A stretch of DNA of 33,184 nucleotides from Myxococcales bacterium (GTDB lineage Bacteria; Myxococcota_A; Polyangia; Polyangiales; Houyiibacteriaceae), in assembly GCA_029863605.1 (NCBI GenBank), contig JAOTVB010000024.1, forward strand, positions 1 through 33,184, given 5' to 3'. The notes below the pieces were generated by a model that had not been told where the DNA came from, did no database searches, and saw only the letters and a list, made by a program, of their open reading frames with translations. Made by a program: the position numbers and the translations under genes. Of this stretch, positions 747 through 13,682 are shown piece by piece; positions within the stretch are counted from its first letter, which is position 1, and each line of letters starts with the position of its first letter.

Positions 747-1613
747 ATGGGGATGAGTGCTTCACGATTGGCCGCGCAAACGGTCCGTGCTCTGCCGCGC
801 AAGCGTTTGAGCAGGGCGATCGGCAGGCTTGCGGCTTCCGCGGCGCCCCAACCGCTGGTCGATGCGGCCATTTCGACATTCGTGAGGGCCTACGACGTCG
901 ATCTGAGCGAGGTCGACATGCCCCCGGAAGGGTTTCGAACCTTCGATGATTTCTTCACGCGCAAGCTGATCGCTGGTGCTCGGGTGGTCGACGCCGACCC
1001 CAGGGCCCTGGTTTCCCCGGCGGATGGACGCGTCGAGGACCTCGGTAGGCTGACTGCGGGGGCCGAGCTTTTGGTCAAAGGGCAAACTTACTCGGCCGCC
1101 GATCTGATCGGCGACCCCGACGCGGCCGCCCCGTATGAAGGCGGGCACTACTTCATCGTGTATCTATCTCCGCGCGACTACCATCGCGTACACGCGCCGA
1201 CATGTGGAGACGTCCAGTACGTCCGCTACGTGCCAGGGACTTTGTTCCCCGTGAACCGGATTGGCACCGATCACATCCCCCAGCTTTTCGCAAGGAACGA
1301 ACGGCTTGCTATTGTGCAGGAAAGCGTGGTTCACGGAGTTGTGACCACGATCATGGTGGGGGCGATCGGTGTGGGACGCATCGGGCTGAGCTTTGACGAT
1401 CTGCAGACGAACCAGGGGAATGCTCCCGGAGTGCGTAGTTACGCCGATTCGCCGATCGCGCGGGATCGAGGCGAAGAGCTGGGCGTCTTCCACATGGGCT
1501 CGACCGCCATCGTGATGGCGCCCCCTGCATGCGAGCTCGAGGTGGCGATCGAGGCCGGTGCGCCGGTTCGGATGGGCGAGGCAATGGCCCTTGGAGGGCT
1601 CGATGAGCGGTGA
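747..1613 (+). CDS. psd: Phosphatidylserine decarboxylase proenzyme
   Basis: This 288-residue protein decarboxylates phosphatidylserine to phosphatidylethanolamine at the inner membrane. Psd enzymes are pyruvoyl enzymes that cleave themselves at a conserved LGST-type motif. Here the motif is HMGSTAIV with the predicted pyruvoyl serine at Ser252. Other family blocks are FDDFFTRKL near residue 65, SPADGRV near 90 (with its Asp) and YLSPRDYHRVHAP near 145 (with the catalytic His). Length and order fit the bacterial type I enzyme. ATG 747 is used; ATG 753 is two codons later and cannot be excluded. The gene overlaps the next CDS by 11 nt, implying translational coupling. No pssA is visible nearby. 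Confidence 0.95.
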   Translation: MGMSASRLAAQTVRALPRKRLSRAIGRLAASAAPQPLVDAAISTFVRAYDVDLSEVDMPPEGFRTFDDFFTRKLIAGARVVDADPRALVSPADGRVEDLGRLTAGAELLVKGQTYSAADLIGDPDAAAPYEGGHYFIVYLSPRDYHRVHAPTCGDVQYVRYVPGTLFPVNRIGTDHIPQLFARNERLAIVQESVVHGVVTTIMVGAIGVGRIGLSFDDLQTNQGNAPGVRSYADSPIARDRGEELGVFHMGSTAIVMAPPACELEVAIEAGAPVRMGEAMALGGLDER

Positions 1614-3045
1614 CGCGGCCGACAAGCCAGACGAGTTAGCGACGCCGCGCCGGACGTACGTGTCGCGTGGGAGGCGAGCGCTCCGGGTGCCGATCACCGA
1701 CATTCCGCGCGCGAAGTTGGTCGACAATGCGACGGCGGCGCCAGGTCACGACAACGGAAACGGCGCGCGCCACGCCGACGAAGAGCGAGATTGGGATCAG
1801 CCTTCCGGGGTGACCGCGGCTGTCGAGGTCGATCGCGACCCGACCGAGCCTTCGTTGCAAACCGAGCCTGACCCCCTTGGCTCTGACCCCCCGGACGAGG
1901 AGGTCGCTTCGGAGGTCTCAGAGCCTTCGATCGACGTAAGATTCAGCGACCCGCCTGAGCTACCGGTGGACGGACCGTCGACCGATGTGGCGCTGCCGCC
2001 CGCCGCGGCAGTGGGCAGCGAGCCCGCTTCCGAAGCACGCTACAGCGAGCCCCCCGAGGAGCTCTTTCTCGACGACGCCGACGTGCTTTCGCGAAGCGAC
2101 ATCGCGCCGGCACCCGAGCTTGCGGGCGATATCTTGATCCCAATCCCGCAGCCACCACCGCCTCCGATCGGAGCCTCCGACGCCGGGCCGCCCGAGGTGG
2201 AGTGCGACGAAGATGGCCCATGGTACGAGAGTTTTTTTGGCCGGCACTATCTGCGCACCGTACAGACGCCGACGCCAAAGGAAGTGGCTGTCGAATGCGA
2301 CTTCATCGAGCGAGCCCTACGCATCCCCGGCGGCTCCCGCGTCCTCGATGTCGGATGTGGTCTTGGGGTACAGACCGTCGAGCTGGCTTCCAGAGGGTAT
2401 CGACTCGTCGGTCTCGACATCTCGCCCACGATGATCTCACGGGCCCGCGACGAAGCCGAAGACCAAGGCTTAAAGGTCGACTTCGTGCGCGGTGACATGC
2501 GCGACGTCGTTTTCGACGAGCCGTTCGATGGGCTCCTTTGCTGGGGCACCACCTTTGGTTACTTCAGCGAAGAGGAAAACGAGCTCGCGATTCGCCAATT
2601 TCATCAGGTGCTCAAACCCAAAGGCACGCTTCTGCTCGAAGTCGTCAACCGTGATTTCATGATCGGCTCACAACCGAACCAGGTGTGGTTCGAAGTCGAT
2701 GGTGCCGTGTGCATGGAAGAGACCGACTTCGACTACGTCACATCGCGGCTGCGGGTCAAACGCCGCGTCGCCAGCCATGACGGCCAAGAGCGAGACCGGC
2801 TCTACTCGATCCGCCTCTACGCGTTGCACGAAATCCGCGCGATGTTCGAGCGCAACGGTTTCCGCATTGACGAGGTGAGCGGTCGAGAGGCCACGATGGG
2901 TGTTTTCTTCGGCACCCACTCGCCGAAGATGATCATCCGCGCCGAGCGCTTGCCCGGACCATTCTCGGATGGCGCCAGCACGCCGCCCCCGCCGCCGGTC
3001 CCCAAAGGCGCGTTGAGCGAGTTCCCGCCCGACAACCTTCCTTAG
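1603..3045 (+). CDS. Class I SAM-dependent methyltransferase with long disordered N-terminus
   Basis: This 480-residue protein starts at ATG 1603 inside the end of psd, with GGAGGG at 1593-1598 as ribosome binding site. Residues from about 205 to 460 form a class I methyltransferase. Motif I is LDVGCGLG near residue 248, followed by LVGLDIS and the motif IV/post-motif region (DGLLCWGTTFGYF, VLKPKGTLLLEV). Substrate is unknown. Coupling to psd makes a phospholipid or envelope substrate conceivable, but that is inference. The first 200 residues are rich in Pro, Glu, Asp and Ser. They include repeated SDPPE/SEPPE motifs and a poly-proline run near 185, and are predicted disordered. Another Pro-rich tail follows the catalytic domain. 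Confidence 0.85.
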   Translation: MSGDAADKPDELATPRRTYVSRGRRALRVPITDIPRAKLVDNATAAPGHDNGNGARHADEERDWDQPSGVTAAVEVDRDPTEPSLQTEPDPLGSDPPDEEVASEVSEPSIDVRFSDPPELPVDGPSTDVALPPAAAVGSEPASEARYSEPPEELFLDDADVLSRSDIAPAPELAGDILIPIPQPPPPPIGASDAGPPEVECDEDGPWYESFFGRHYLRTVQTPTPKEVAVECDFIERALRIPGGSRVLDVGCGLGVQTVELASRGYRLVGLDISPTMISRARDEAEDQGLKVDFVRGDMRDVVFDEPFDGLLCWGTTFGYFSEEENELAIRQFHQVLKPKGTLLLEVVNRDFMIGSQPNQVWFEVDGAVCMEETDFDYVTSRLRVKRRVASHDGQERDRLYSIRLYALHEIRAMFERNGFRIDEVSGREATMGVFFGTHSPKMIIRAERLPGPFSDGASTPPPPPVPKGALSEFPPDNLP

Positions 3046-6192: not shown

Positions 6193-7239
6193 TTACGCAT
6201 CCCGCTTGCGAATCTCGCGCAACAATATGGTGGCATAGGCGCCGGCGGGTAGGGTGAAATCGAGCTCCACCGTGTTGTCACTCACAGTCACGCCTGTTTT
6301 GGGCACTGAAACGCGGACGAATCGTCTCGTGCCAGGGGCGACGCGTTTCCACTTAACTAGGTGATCGGGGGTTAATTCGACGCTGTGGAGGAGCGCTTCT
6401 TCGCGCAAGCGCGCCTCGCCTTCGGGCCAGCGCATCTTCGCCCCGAAGATCGGGCCCGTCGGGCTGATCTCCCATCGATCGGCGCGCGCTTGCGCTTCTT
6501 CGAGATCGTCCTCGACGGCGAACAGTCCACCTGTGTCGTGCCGCTTCATCAGGTCGCCCCGATACACGCGACCGATCGCAGTGTCGGTCACGCGCTGCGC
6601 GACGCACCGATTGAAGAGCTCGGATTGGAGGGCCGACATCTCGAGCTTTCGGTTGAACGCCTTGCGGGGTGGACGGCTCTTGCCAAGCACCCATCGGAGC
6701 GCGCGCTCAGCGTTGTCGCCGCCGCGACCGAATCGTTGCTCGCCATAGTAGTTGGGCAGCCCCAAGGTCTCGATCCGACCCAATACCTCTCGGAGCCGTT
6801 CGATTCCCGAGGGGTCGACCTTGCGAAGCCGGATCCGGAAGCGGTTGGCCCGAAGATGACCCGTTCTCAGCTTGTGAGGGTGTCGGGCCACTTCGAGCAC
6901 GCGAAGGCCTTCGAGCTCGAGCTCCTGCAACCGTTCGGGCGTCACACCAAAGAGGCTCACCCATTGACGGGTGACCGCGTGACGGTCCTTGAGCCCCGCC
7001 CAACCCGCGTTCGCGAGGTCCGCGCCGACCGCCTCGCAGATCCGGCGTACCGCTTCGCGGGTCGTCAGCTCGCGCTTTTCGACGAAAGCCAGGACATGGT
7101 CGCCGGTGCCGGCAGGAGCGTACGCAGGCACCTCCTCGACTTCAAAGTCCTCTGGCGAGGCGCGAAGATCCGCTTCGACCGGGCCGATATCCGAGGTGAG
7201 GAAAGGAAGCTTGGTCACGCTCGGGTTCCTGTAGACCAT
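6193..7239 (-). CDS. truD: tRNA pseudouridine(13) synthase TruD
   Basis: This 348-residue protein matches the usual TruD length. It isomerises U13 of certain tRNAs to pseudouridine in the cytoplasm. The catalytic block GLKDRHAVTRQ is present with Asp85 as nucleophile, as is the family motif NYYGEQRFGR near residue 160. The open frame extends much further upstream, but that extension is not protein-like. ATG 7239 gives the family start (SDIGPVEADLRASPEDFEVEEV shortly after). It is divergent from the serine hydrolase, with only 27 bp between start codons, and lies upstream of exbB. Confidence 0.92.
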   Translation of the reverse strand: MVYRNPSVTKLPFLTSDIGPVEADLRASPEDFEVEEVPAYAPAGTGDHVLAFVEKRELTTREAVRRICEAVGADLANAGWAGLKDRHAVTRQWVSLFGVTPERLQELELEGLRVLEVARHPHKLRTGHLRANRFRIRLRKVDPSGIERLREVLGRIETLGLPNYYGEQRFGRGGDNAERALRWVLGKSRPPRKAFNRKLEMSALQSELFNRCVAQRVTDTAIGRVYRGDLMKRHDTGGLFAVEDDLEEAQARADRWEISPTGPIFGAKMRWPEGEARLREEALLHSVELTPDHLVKWKRVAPGTRRFVRVSVPKTGVTVSDNTVELDFTLPAGAYATILLREIRKRDA

Positions 7240-7266
7240 CGACTCGCGATTGGGTAGACACCAGTT

Positions 7267-8373
7267 GTGGGGGACGATCTGTCGCTGCGCATCGAGCGCG
7301 CGCTTCGCGAGCAGCTCGAAGGGGGATGCTCGAAAGGCGTTTTCCCCGGCGCGAGCGCGTGCGTCGGCCGGTGGCGCGACGGGGTGTGGATCTACGTCGA
7401 CGTCTGCTCGGGCCTGCTTGGCGAAGGCCTCGGTCCAGTGATGAATGATGCGGTCTACGACCTTGCCTCGTTGACCAAGCCTTGGGTGGCGACGGCAGCC
7501 CTTCGGCTTCATCAGTTCGGGGTTTTTGCACTCGACGAAGGCGTAGCGTCCCTGGTTCCCGAGGCCGAGGGCCTCCCCATTGGTGACCGTACTTGGGAAG
7601 AGGTGATGAGTCACCGCGCAGGCCTCGAGGCATGGGCTCCGTTTTACGAAACGCTTCCGCACGAGCCCGGCAGCGACGAAGCACGCGCGTGGATTCTGAC
7701 GGAGCTTCTGCAGCATTGGGATCGAGAGAAAGTAGGCAGCCCTGTGTACAGCGACCTCGGCTACATCCTGGCTGGGGTCGCTCTCGAACGAGCGACGGGT
7801 GCACCGTTACAAGACCTGGTGATGCTCGAGGTGGCTGCGCCGCTCGGCTTCGACGCTGAGGTGTTCTTCGCGGCTGCCCGTGATGACCAGGGCTGGAACG
7901 TCCGATGCGCACCAACCGGATGGTCGGACTGGCGCGCGCGTGATCTCCGCGGCGAGGTCCACGATGACAACTGCGCGGCGCTCGGCGGAGTGGCGGGGCA
8001 TGCCGGGATGTTTGGGTCCGCGCGTGCGGTGGCGCGATTTGGGGCGGCCCAGGTCGGCGCTCTGCATGGCCGAATGGGGTCGATGGCCGAGGAGCGTGTC
8101 CGTCACGCAACGTCGAAACGTCCCGGCGGCGTTCAAGGTCTAGGGTGGGACGGAAAAGCAGACGAGGGAAGCGTGGCGGGCGAATTGATCGATGCAGACG
8201 CTTTCGGTCACCTCGGTTTCACCGGAACCTCGATTTGGTGCGACCCTCGCCGCCAGTTGGTCACGGTCCTCCTCACGAACCGGGTCGCGGTCTCCGATGA
8301 CAACGCCGCGATACGTAGGTTCCGCCCCGCCTTTCAAGATGCGGTGATGCAAGCTTTCGACGGGAGCCTCTAG
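7267..8373 (+). CDS. Class C beta-lactamase-like serine hydrolase
   Basis: This 368-residue protein is of the beta-lactamase/penicillin-binding-protein-like family. It has the SxxK nucleophile motif (SLTK, Ser68), a Tyr-Ser-Asp motif (YSDLGY near 161) and the third motif HLGFTGTS near 317 in place of KTG. Such proteins include esterases, D-aminopeptidases and peptidoglycan-related hydrolases, and the substrate cannot be told here. No signal peptide is visible, so it is probably cytoplasmic. The start is GTG 7267, since an in-frame stop lies at 7255-7257 and no earlier start exists. No good ribosome binding site is visible. Its stop overlaps that of recD2 tail to tail by 4 bp (CTAG). Confidence 0.85.
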   Translation: MGDDLSLRIERALREQLEGGCSKGVFPGASACVGRWRDGVWIYVDVCSGLLGEGLGPVMNDAVYDLASLTKPWVATAALRLHQFGVFALDEGVASLVPEAEGLPIGDRTWEEVMSHRAGLEAWAPFYETLPHEPGSDEARAWILTELLQHWDREKVGSPVYSDLGYILAGVALERATGAPLQDLVMLEVAAPLGFDAEVFFAAARDDQGWNVRCAPTGWSDWRARDLRGEVHDDNCAALGGVAGHAGMFGSARAVARFGAAQVGALHGRMGSMAEERVRHATSKRPGGVQGLGWDGKADEGSVAGELIDADAFGHLGFTGTSIWCDPRRQLVTVLLTNRVAVSDDNAAIRRFRPAFQDAVMQAFDGSL

Positions 8374-10604: not shown

Positions 10605-10808
10605 ATGGCGACTCTACCCAAGATGAGCGCCCCGATTGGACGGGTGCGTATCAAGACAGGCAAAAAGTCAGCGAGTGGAGACCGTTGGCGGTCGGCCGAC
10701 CCTGCCGTCGACAGCGAGGCGACCGACCTCGAGGAAATGCACGGCGACGAGCGACGTCCGCGATTCTACCCGTTTCCACTCCCGTCCGCTGTAGAAGCCG
10801 ACGACTGA
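10605..10808 (+). CDS. Small hypothetical protein (67 aa)
   Basis: A 67-residue frame starts at ATG 10605 (MATLPKMSAPIGRVRIKTGKK) and ends at TGA 10806-10808. It is basic at the front, acidic in the middle (DSEATDLEEMHGDE) and ends with aromatic/proline residues (RRPRFYPFPLP). It has no cysteine, membrane segment or signal peptide. Codon use has the high-GC third positions of its neighbours. It lies 53 bp before the ParA-like fusion gene on the same strand and could be its first cistron. No family recognised. Confidence 0.5.
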   Translation: MATLPKMSAPIGRVRIKTGKKSASGDRWRSADPAVDSEATDLEEMHGDERRPRFYPFPLPSAVEADD

Positions 10809-10861: not shown

Positions 10862-12406
10862 ATGCCCCCGACCACGATCGCCATCCTCGGGGCCAAAGGC
10901 GGGGTCGGCACGTCCTCGTTCAGTGCCAACTTGGCGATTTACCTCGCGACCATCGGAAAGCGGGTCCTGGCGGTCGATGCAGACCCTGCGGGTTCGCACC
11001 TTCATGCGGCGCTCGGGGTGGGGCCGCGGGTTGCGCCGTACGTGGCGCCGGCGCCCGCGTTTGGCGACGAGGGAGAGAGCTTGTTCGCCGGGGCGGAGCT
11101 GGATGCGGAAATGGTCAACACGCTACCGCCGCGCGATCCCGTCGAGGGTCCGGTCCCAGGGCTTCATCTCATGGACGGCGGCCTCAGCGAACCGCATCGT
11201 GGCAGCGCTCGACGGAGCTCGCTTCGTGAGCTGAAGAGTCGACTCGCCAAACAGGACGCGGACTTTGCGGTGGTAGACATGGGCTCGACTGCGAGCGACG
11301 CCGCGGTTCGGTTTTGGTGCAACTCGCGGCATCGGCTTGCGGTAACCATTCCCGAACCCAATGCGGTGACGGGCCTCTACAAATTGGTTCGCAAGGCGTT
11401 TGCCCACGTTGCGCTCGACGACATCGAGGACGAAGACGACCGCAGCATGCTTCACGACGCCTTCACCAAGGCCGGTCACACACCGATCCCCGCCGACATC
11501 GCGGCGTTGGTGCAGCGAGACTCCCCCGCGCTTGGTCACGGACTTCGTCACTGGATGAGCGCCCTCAGTTTGCCGTTCATCGTAAACGAGGCGCGCCTTC
11601 GCGCCGACCTCGACCTCGGCGATCACATCAGTGTTGCGGTACGTCGTCGCTTTGGAGTGCATCTAAAGTACCTCGGTTACGTCGAACACGACGATGCGGT
11701 ACGAACGACATCTCTCAAGCGTCGGCCCCTGCTTCTCGAAAGCCCGGGAAGCCGTGCAAGCCGGAACATCGAAAAGATCGCACGTCGGCTCTTTGCTGCG
11801 CAGGACACCCGGCGAGACCGGACACCATGGCGCGACGTGCCCGGCAATTCCCATTATGACGTTCTCGAGGTCGAACGGGGAGCCACCGACGAGGAGATTC
11901 GCCGCGCCCACAAGCGGATGTGTGCGGTGTTCGATTCAGATAACATCGTGACCTTCGGCCTGTTCGACCAGGAGGGGCTCGAGGCGGCGCGGGCACGGAT
12001 CGACGAGGCCTACGATGTCCTTCTCGACCCCGCGCGCCGACGGCCGTACGAGATTTCCGTCTTTCCCGACGCTCCCGAGGCCGAGACCAGGGTCAAAGAC
12101 AAGACCATCCCCCCAGGCGAGCTTCCGCCCGCGCCGACGATCACTCCGGATACCGAGTTCTCGGGTGCCTTGCTTCGTGCCGTGCGGGAGTCGCAAGGGA
12201 CTGGCCTCGAACAGATCAGCGAACATACCAAGGTCGGCACCAACTACCTGCGATGCATCGAGGACGACGAGTTTGACGAGCTCCCGGCTGCGGTGTACGT
12301 GCGCGGCTTCGTCACCGAGTTTGCCAAATGCTTGAAGCTCGATCCCGAGCAGGTGAGCCAGAGTTACTTGCGTCGTTATCGAGAACATCGCGAGGCCAAG
12401 GCGTGA
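10862..12406 (+). CDS. ParA/MinD-like ATPase fused to J-like domain and RodZ-type HTH
   Basis: The 514-residue product has three parts. Residues 1-320 are a ParA/MinD-type ATPase with deviant Walker A GAKGGVGTS (10-18), VLAVDADPAGSHLH (switch/A') and VVDMGSTASDAA (Walker B-like). Residues about 327-400 resemble a DnaJ domain (HYDVLEVERGATDEEIRRAHKRM, then RIDEAYDVLLDPARRRPYE). The HPD tripeptide needed to stimulate Hsp70 is absent (FDSDN at that place). Residues about 434-510 match the N-terminal HTH of RodZ/HTH_25 (GALLRAVRESQGTGLEQIS, YLRCIEDDEFDELPAAVYVRGFV). The parts suggest a positioning or cytoskeleton-linked cytoplasmic ATPase. ATG 10862 is preferred over a TTG 36 nt upstream. Its TGA overlaps the maf GTG. 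Confidence 0.85.
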   Translation: MPPTTIAILGAKGGVGTSSFSANLAIYLATIGKRVLAVDADPAGSHLHAALGVGPRVAPYVAPAPAFGDEGESLFAGAELDAEMVNTLPPRDPVEGPVPGLHLMDGGLSEPHRGSARRSSLRELKSRLAKQDADFAVVDMGSTASDAAVRFWCNSRHRLAVTIPEPNAVTGLYKLVRKAFAHVALDDIEDEDDRSMLHDAFTKAGHTPIPADIAALVQRDSPALGHGLRHWMSALSLPFIVNEARLRADLDLGDHISVAVRRRFGVHLKYLGYVEHDDAVRTTSLKRRPLLLESPGSRASRNIEKIARRLFAAQDTRRDRTPWRDVPGNSHYDVLEVERGATDEEIRRAHKRMCAVFDSDNIVTFGLFDQEGLEAARARIDEAYDVLLDPARRRPYEISVFPDAPEAETRVKDKTIPPGELPPAPTITPDTEFSGALLRAVRESQGTGLEQISEHTKVGTNYLRCIEDDEFDELPAAVYVRGFVTEFAKCLKLDPEQVSQSYLRRYREHREAKA

Positions 12407-12996
12407 GTGCGCATCGGCTCGTCTTGGCATCCGCTTCCCCCCGTCGCGCAGAGATTCTAGAAACGTTGGGGCTCGCGTTCGAGGTGCGCCCGAGTGGGGC
12501 GGACGAGAGCTCCCTGGTCGCCGAGGACGACGCCGCATTCGTGCGCGCGGCCGCTGTCGCAAAGCTTACCGACGTGCTCGATTCGATCGATGATCTAGGG
12601 GCGTTCGTTCTGGCGGCCGACACGGTTGTGTGCGTCGAGGGAAAACGCCTCGGTCAACCGGTCGACGACGACGATGCGCTTCGGATGCTCGGGCTCTTGG
12701 CGGGCCGTGATCACGTCGTTCGGACGGCGATAGCCCTCGGGCAGGTCGGTCGAGGCGTTCTCGAATGTCGTGACGTCGAAACGCGTGTCTGGTTCCGCGA
12801 CGCCGATCGCCAAGAGCTTCGCCGTTACGTCGCAACCGGCGAGAGCCGGGACAAGGCCGGTGCTTACGGAGTCCAAGGGGTGGCGAGCGGCTTTGTTACG
12901 CGCCTCGAGGGATCATACACCAACGTCGTCGGGTTACCGGCCGCCGAGGTGGTCGGCTTGCTCCTCGAGCACGGTGCGTTGGAGGAATGGCCTTGA
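12403..12996 (+). CDS. maf: Maf-family nucleoside triphosphate pyrophosphatase
   Basis: This 197-residue protein begins with the Maf signature LVLASASPRRAEIL. It has AADTVVCVEGKRLGQP (catalytic Asp near residue 71) and DKAGAYGVQG near 150, all diagnostic. Maf proteins hydrolyse dTTP/UTP or modified nucleotides to monophosphates and have been linked to septum control. The start is GTG 12403, whose last bases overlap the TGA of the upstream ATPase fusion (GTGA). This implies translational coupling. It ends inside yggS with a 10-nt overlap. Confidence 0.92.
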   Translation: MSAHRLVLASASPRRAEILETLGLAFEVRPSGADESSLVAEDDAAFVRAAAVAKLTDVLDSIDDLGAFVLAADTVVCVEGKRLGQPVDDDDALRMLGLLAGRDHVVRTAIALGQVGRGVLECRDVETRVWFRDADRQELRRYVATGESRDKAGAYGVQGVASGFVTRLEGSYTNVVGLPAAEVVGLLLEHGALEEWP

Positions 12997-13682
12997 ATCT
13001 CGACCTCGCGGAAAACCTCGATCGCGTTCGGGAGCGGATCGAGCGCGCATGTGATCGTGCGGGCCGCGATCCAAGCTCAGTCGAGCTCGTCGCCGTGTCG
13101 AAGGCACACAGCGAGCAACTCATTCGCGCGGCTTACGATGCGGGCCTTCGTGTGTTTGGGGAGAACTACGCCCAGGAGCTCGCGGAAAAAGCCGACGCTC
13201 TCCGCGACCTCAAGGGGCTCCGCTGGCGCTTCATCGGCCACCTTCAGCGCAACAAGATCAAGCTCGTCGAGCGTGCTCGAGCAACCGTCGATACCGTCGA
13301 TTCGATTCGCCTCGCCGAGGCCCTCTCGGCCCGCGCTGAGGCAGGCGGGTACAGCACCGAAGCCCTAATTCAGGTCAACGTGGGCGAAGAAGCTCAGAAA
13401 TCTGGCTGCACGCCCAAGGAGTTGCCTTCGCTGGTAGAGGGGGTTCAGCAACTACCGGGCCTTGCGCTTCGGGGTTTGATGACGGTCGCGCCGCACTTCG
13501 ACGATCCGAAGGACGCTCGGCCGTGTTTTGCGGCGTTGCGACGCTTGGCCGAGCACCATGGCCTCGAGACTCTGTCGATGGGCATGACTCACGACCTCGA
13601 GCCGGCCGTCGCAGAGGGTGCGACTATGGTCCGGATCGGGACTGCGCTCTTCGGCGAGCGTGAGCCTGACCGACGCGGCTAG
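12987..13682 (+). CDS. yggS: YggS/ProSC-family PLP homeostasis protein
   Basis: This 231-residue PLP-binding barrel protein is conserved from bacteria to humans and controls free pyridoxal phosphate. The PLP lysine is Lys39 in LVAVSK. FGENYAQE, RFIGHLQRNK and VRIGTALFG are family blocks. The phosphate-contact loop normally reads LSMGMSxDLxxA; here it is LSMGMTHDLEPAV, with Ser to Thr and an added His. It overlaps maf by 10 nt at its ATG. Its TAG shares a CTAG with the convergent proC stop. yggS often sits beside proC; here proC is on the opposite strand. Confidence 0.93.
   Translation: MALNLDLAENLDRVRERIERACDRAGRDPSSVELVAVSKAHSEQLIRAAYDAGLRVFGENYAQELAEKADALRDLKGLRWRFIGHLQRNKIKLVERARATVDTVDSIRLAEALSARAEAGGYSTEALIQVNVGEEAQKSGCTPKELPSLVEGVQQLPGLALRGLMTVAPHFDDPKDARPCFAALRRLAEHHGLETLSMGMTHDLEPAVAEGATMVRIGTALFGEREPDRRG

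Follow-up and report, generated by a model that had tools for sequence, protein, structure and literature searches.

J domains that lack the histidine of their HPD motif are not expected to stimulate Hsp70, and J-like proteins that have lost HPD are represented by Pam16/Magmas. Among MinD/ParA-type proteins, FleN acts on transcription, large ParAs carry DNA-binding HTH domains, and Escherichia coli BcsQ has a P-loop, RGGVGTT, without the Walker A lysine (PMC9178275). For RodZ, mutation of Y66/F70 in the Chlamydia protein abolishes MreB binding (PMC4047632), while in Bacillus subtilis a contact between RodZ and MinJ links a RodZ-type protein to the Min system (PMC5778138).

A gene in a 33,184-nucleotide stretch of DNA from a Myxococcales bacterium of an uncultured Myxococcota lineage (contig JAOTVB010000024.1; hereafter the window) encodes a protein that resembles each of these systems in part. 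FlhG/FleN provide its nearest fold and a PDB sequence match, and its PEPTAI and YxD-D motifs align with FleN; it differs from them by additional J-like and HTH_25 domains, by the absence of the Walker A lysine in the window genus, and by a neighbourhood in which no FlhF, FleQ or flagellar genes are seen beside the gene. With BcsQ it shares the same Walker A change, GGVGT[ST], but it scores 48.5 bits on the BcsQ NCBIfam equivalog against a cut-off of 157.85, and BcsQ, whose partners are BcsR/BcsE, lacks both J and HTH domains. As in Pam16-type proteins, the J fold and a basic helix II are kept and HPD is lost; here, however, the domain is fused to a MinD-like switch and there is no membrane import motor. 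The HTH_25 fold (2wus_R) and both MreB-contact aromatics are those of RodZ, whereas its position is C-terminal in a soluble protein lacking a transmembrane segment and RodZ_C. In B. subtilis, too, a RodZ-type protein meets the Min system, but as two separate proteins and through MinJ, not MinD, whereas here everything lies in one polypeptide. No description of these domains combined, whether in one gene or in two adjacent ones, was found in the open-licence papers searched; the parts are well known singly, and their lasting combination is what is new.

Architecture and distribution of the fusion protein

The gene is a single uninterrupted open reading frame with an ATG start. Its layout, and that of the two genes downstream, is the following:

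10862..12406, plus strand: fusion gene (514 residues), MinD/FlhG-like (pseudo)ATPase, HPD-less J-like domain and RodZ-type HTH_25
10862..11806, plus strand: FlhG/FleN-like MinD/ParA domain, residues ~1-315, with P-loop GAKGGVGTS at residues 10-18
11837..12076, plus strand: J-like domain, residues 326-405, with basic helix II RRAHKR and DSD in place of HPD
12077..12157, plus strand: proline-rich variable linker, residues 406-432, the fastest evolving part
12158..12385, plus strand: RodZ-type HTH_25, residues 433-508; Tyr479 and Phe483 occupy the MreB-contact positions
12403..12996, plus strand: maf, whose GTG start overlaps the stop of the fusion gene by 4 bases
12987..13682, plus strand: yggS-type PLP protein, downstream of maf

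Three Pfam families match above their curated cut-offs: ParA/CbiA starting at residue 5 (E 5e-11), DnaJ at residues 331-397 (E 6e-8) and HTH_25 at residues 437-498 (E 1e-21). The structure models are of modest confidence because the alignment is limited to 12 sequences (the window and related loci): the AlphaFold2 model of the whole protein has a mean pLDDT of 59, and the C-terminal 193 residues folded separately reach 74. FlhG/FleN-type ATPases are marked by a C-terminal amphipathic membrane-targeting helix; in the model of the whole protein the last core helix of the MinD-like part passes straight into the linker and J-like part. In Foldseek searches, the nearest solved folds to residues 1-~315 are FleN (E 9e-10) and FlhG; the C-terminal model contains a J fold (2och, Z 9.9; the DnaJB1 J domain in 8fe2 is 40% identical) and matches RodZ of the MreB-RodZ complex (2wus_R, Z 10.7). 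The sequence-only reading had recognised three domains in one 514-residue protein, and on this sequence and predicted structure agree, the middle region matching J domains and the C-terminus the RodZ HTH. The protein has no membrane segment, the highest 19-residue hydropathy (1.25) lying in the ATPase part.

All three domains are under strong purifying selection: in six pairwise comparisons within the window genus, omega is 0.07-0.15 in the ATPase domain, 0.04-0.07 in the J-like part and 0.02-0.07 in the HTH (one pair not computable), and it rises to as much as 0.59 in the linker. A homologue is found in 35 of 37 relatives, at 36-94% identity. The identity of the protein is firm, that of a conserved three-domain protein combining known families in a new way, and the idea that the fusion is a meaningless product of chance or of assembly, for which nothing was found in favour, is as good as ruled out by the recurrence of the same architecture in these relatives and by the low omega values. 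Other origins or identities were rejected as well: plasmid matches span the HTH only, there is no phage match, and the resemblance to defence genes comes down to a weak P-loop match.

The survey of genomes covered a single phylum, Myxococcota; a search for homologous contigs returned window-genus loci and one more distant relative only. Among 141 Myxococcota genomes, a profile matched 64 at E <= 1e-30, so that the view that these domains are rarely seen together, as first proposed, is wrong for this phylum, where they occur fused or in adjacent genes. Within the class to which the window belongs, families f13-f15 have the single-ORF form, as does the window's own order. Many other Myxococcota families have a split form, in which a ~350-residue MinD-like ATPase is followed directly by a J-like/HTH_25 protein of ~225-280 residues, and families f19 and f23 likewise have the adjacent pair. 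A J-like/HTH profile is matched over its full length in one match in 57 of the 141 genomes and in two pieces in at least 5 more. For the J-like/HTH protein of family f26, the ~3-4 kb of flanking sequence read in either direction contain no profile-matching ATPase. Since a single change separates the fused and split forms on the ATPase-domain tree (76% of bootstraps; root not known), one fusion or one fission event may account for the two forms.

One genome of the window genome's own family (G106) has no match to the module and, since it is 99% complete, the module is dispensable at least there. In two further genomes (L150 in G162, L154 in G049), a paralogous MinD/FlhG-like ATPase leads straight into a fused C-terminal HTH_25, the J-like part being absent, which suggests that the pairing of ATPase and HTH_25 arose more than once and, because it recurs on a paralogous ATPase lacking the J part, that this pairing is the functional core.

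Repeated loss of the Walker A lysine

In the P-loop of the window protein, a threonine replaces the catalytic Walker A lysine (KGGVGTS), a loss that the sequence-only reading had passed over, and this lysine is absent from all window-genus sequences read. The lysine form, KGGVGK[ST], is kept in 59 of 79 family rows, the rest carrying T, R, A, V, H, S or Q. On an ATPase-domain tree built with the P-loop columns left out, the distribution of the loss needs 8 changes, 7 of them forced by well supported branches; the catalytic lysine has been lost several times independently in the family. Given this replacement and the repeated losses, ATP turnover by the window-genus protein is doubtful. The switch I aspartate (VDADP; Asp39/Asp41) and the Walker B Asp139 (VVDMG) are retained in the window protein and, since these switch aspartates remain, nucleotide binding without normal turnover is plausible.

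The protein had initially been described as a positioning ATPase. The MinD/ParA fold, nearest to FleN/FlhG, stands, whereas the activity is in doubt in the window genus, where the lysine is gone. A conventional positioning ATPase, working by a ParA/MinD-type gradient or oscillation with the J-like and HTH domains as mere cargo adaptors, would fit the many family rows that keep KGGVGK[ST]; it is quite improbable, given that the whole window genus has lost the lysine and that other lineages have lost it independently (at least 7 forced changes), and given the lack of a membrane segment. The losses of Walker A lysine and of HPD within a single family offer a natural series for asking which functions such pseudo-enzymes retain.

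The J-like and HTH_25 modules and their candidate partners

In the window protein, the position of the HPD motif reads DSD, in line with the first description of this region as J-like but without HPD. HPD is present in a single one of 74 family J-like domains, the other 73 showing 55 different tripeptides, among them QPD, RPD and APD. The one member found to retain it (L131, G150:C56), which is encoded on a short contig as an unfused J/HTH_25 protein, allows the HPD position to be aligned with certainty. The basic helix II motif is conserved, with R in 69 of 74 domains and K/R in 69 of 74. In three J-like/HTH_25 proteins of family f26 (L143, L146, L147), a basic RRRR stretch replaces the HPD loop.

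In the HTH_25 domain, Tyr479 and Phe483 align with F60/Y64 of E. coli RodZ and with Y66/F70 of Chlamydia RodZ. Across 75 family HTH domains, the first position is Tyr in all 75 and the second is Phe in 71 and Tyr in 4, and MreB itself is found in 24 of 24 relatives. The same pair of aromatics is present in Staphylococcus aureus 3fym. S. aureus is a coccus that is not known to have MreB, so the aromatics are necessary but not sufficient for MreB binding; they belong to the general HTH_25 consensus. The link to MreB suggested by the sequence-only reading is therefore compatible with the invariant aromatics and the universal presence of MreB among the relatives, but it is weakened by 3fym, by an ancestral neighbourhood of translation genes (see below) and by a second RodZ-like protein. 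This last protein, encoded in the window's own genome beside recO (L096, G000:C28:582304; 1450-1965, plus strand), has 171 residues, an HTH_25 and a transmembrane segment. RodZ_C (PF13464) is absent from all 24 genomes searched, the own genome included, and the 171-residue protein is the more likely RodZ, one without the RodZ_C domain. The fusion protein was rejected as RodZ: it has neither membrane segment nor RodZ_C, and a separate RodZ-like membrane protein exists in the genome.

The HTH could instead bind DNA, in autoregulation or at an operon, with the MinD-like domain as switch, as in a FleN or type Ia ParA-like regulator. FleN and FlhG are indeed the nearest folds, the HTHs of SinR and HigA also match the C-terminal model, more weakly than RodZ, and the transcriptional role of FleN and the HTH-bearing large ParAs are precedents (PMC9178275). 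However, the putative recognition helix, at -0.4 on average across the family, carries no net positive charge, which argues mildly against DNA binding, and the HTH of the window protein has an overall charge of -5; the best structural match is moreover RodZ, not a repressor. Such a regulator is rather unlikely, yet, like a role linked to translation, it is a serious rival to a scaffold with MreB as client.

A scaffold of this kind is the account that we favour, if only tentatively: the protein would be a conserved Myxococcota module in fused form and would work in the cytosol as a dimeric scaffold, gated by nucleotide, on which docking modules are displayed; among possible clients MreB is the strongest single candidate. 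As judged from its fold, the MinD-like domain would form an ATP-sandwich dimer and thereby display its J-like and HTH_25 modules in pairs for partners to dock on. The J-like domain, presumably no longer able to trigger Hsp70 but keeping its basic helix II face, may act as an adaptor, and the HTH_25 would bind a partner, most plausibly MreB if a single one is to be named, through its RodZ-type aromatic surface. In the window genus the switch may be slow or locked, as its Walker A lysine is a threonine, as in BcsQ. The domain and fold matches, the presence of the protein in 35 of 37 relatives, a possible single origin of the fusion, the low omega values, the invariant aromatics, whose Chlamydia equivalents are needed for MreB binding (PMC4047632), MreB in 24 of 24 relatives, the direct joining of a paralogous ATPase to HTH_25 without J, the P-loop of BcsQ (PMC9178275) and the RodZ-MinJ contact of B. 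subtilis (PMC5778138) all speak for the scaffold. Against it stand the lack of any copy in G106, a nearly complete genome from the same family, the existence of a separate RodZ-like membrane protein that could already serve MreB, and contact aromatics that are shared with the HTH_25 consensus at large and with S. aureus 3fym. The more specific proposal of a MinD/FlhG-type switch wired directly to MreB by a soluble HTH of RodZ type, in which a pseudo-J domain is the adaptor and several lineages have made the switch a pseudo-ATPase scaffold, is a doubtful one. The module constitutes a concrete test case for direct communication between MinD-like switches and MreB.

Gene neighbourhood

In most families read, the unfused pair lies in a cluster of the order selA - (HNH) - ATPase - J/HTH - rluD - yfiH - rho - prfA. 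The module adjoins rluD in families f15, f19, f21, f23, f25, f26, f32, f33, f36 and f37; it is mostly preceded by selA and often followed by yfiH, rho and prfA, and rng, rplU and obgE lie on its other side in several of them. Also in families without an adjacent ATPase, the J-like/HTH gene is flanked by selA and rluD, as it is in f26 where read. The fused member f15 shows the order selA - fusion - rluD; because this is the order of the split form, the selA/rluD site is likely the ancestral place of the module and the fused and split forms are likely orthologous.

The conserved order selA - ATPase - J/HTH - rluD, fused or paired across the phylum, favours the scaffold as a lasting unit, but genes for translation and the ribosome, not for cell shape, make up this ancestral neighbourhood and count against MreB as client. 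They point instead to an adaptor acting on ribosome assembly, nascent chains or selenoprotein synthesis, with MreB uninvolved, for which the retained basic face of helix II and the selA and rluD flanks of f15 and of families lacking an adjacent ATPase also speak. Housekeeping clusters, however, often contain unrelated genes, the window lineage relocated the gene to recD2/maf/yggS and did not lose it, and a RodZ-type HTH is not known as a ribosome binder; this translation-linked role is unlikely on balance.

In the window genus and family f2, recD2 precedes the fusion gene and maf-yggS follow it. In each of the ten genus loci read, the fusion stop and the maf start share four bases, GTGA or ATGA, so maf starts at 12403 and not at the longer ATG at 12328. 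As judged from this genus-wide overlap, the translational coupling to maf put forward earlier is real but local; of the link to division drawn from it, the adjacency to maf holds, but it is confined to the window genus and family f2.

Between recD2 and the fusion gene lies a 67-residue open reading frame (10605-10808, plus strand; MATLPKMSAPIGRVRI...RPRFYPFPL) with no Pfam family, whose N-terminus and tail are conserved in nearly all genus loci read, at 35-91% identity. Further upstream, at 6193-8373, the longest truD open reading frame (507 residues, minus strand) overlaps a beta-lactamase-like one on the plus strand; since the TruD match begins only at residue ~173 and a relative (L077) is called with 354 residues, the true truD start is probably downstream of the longest-ORF start.
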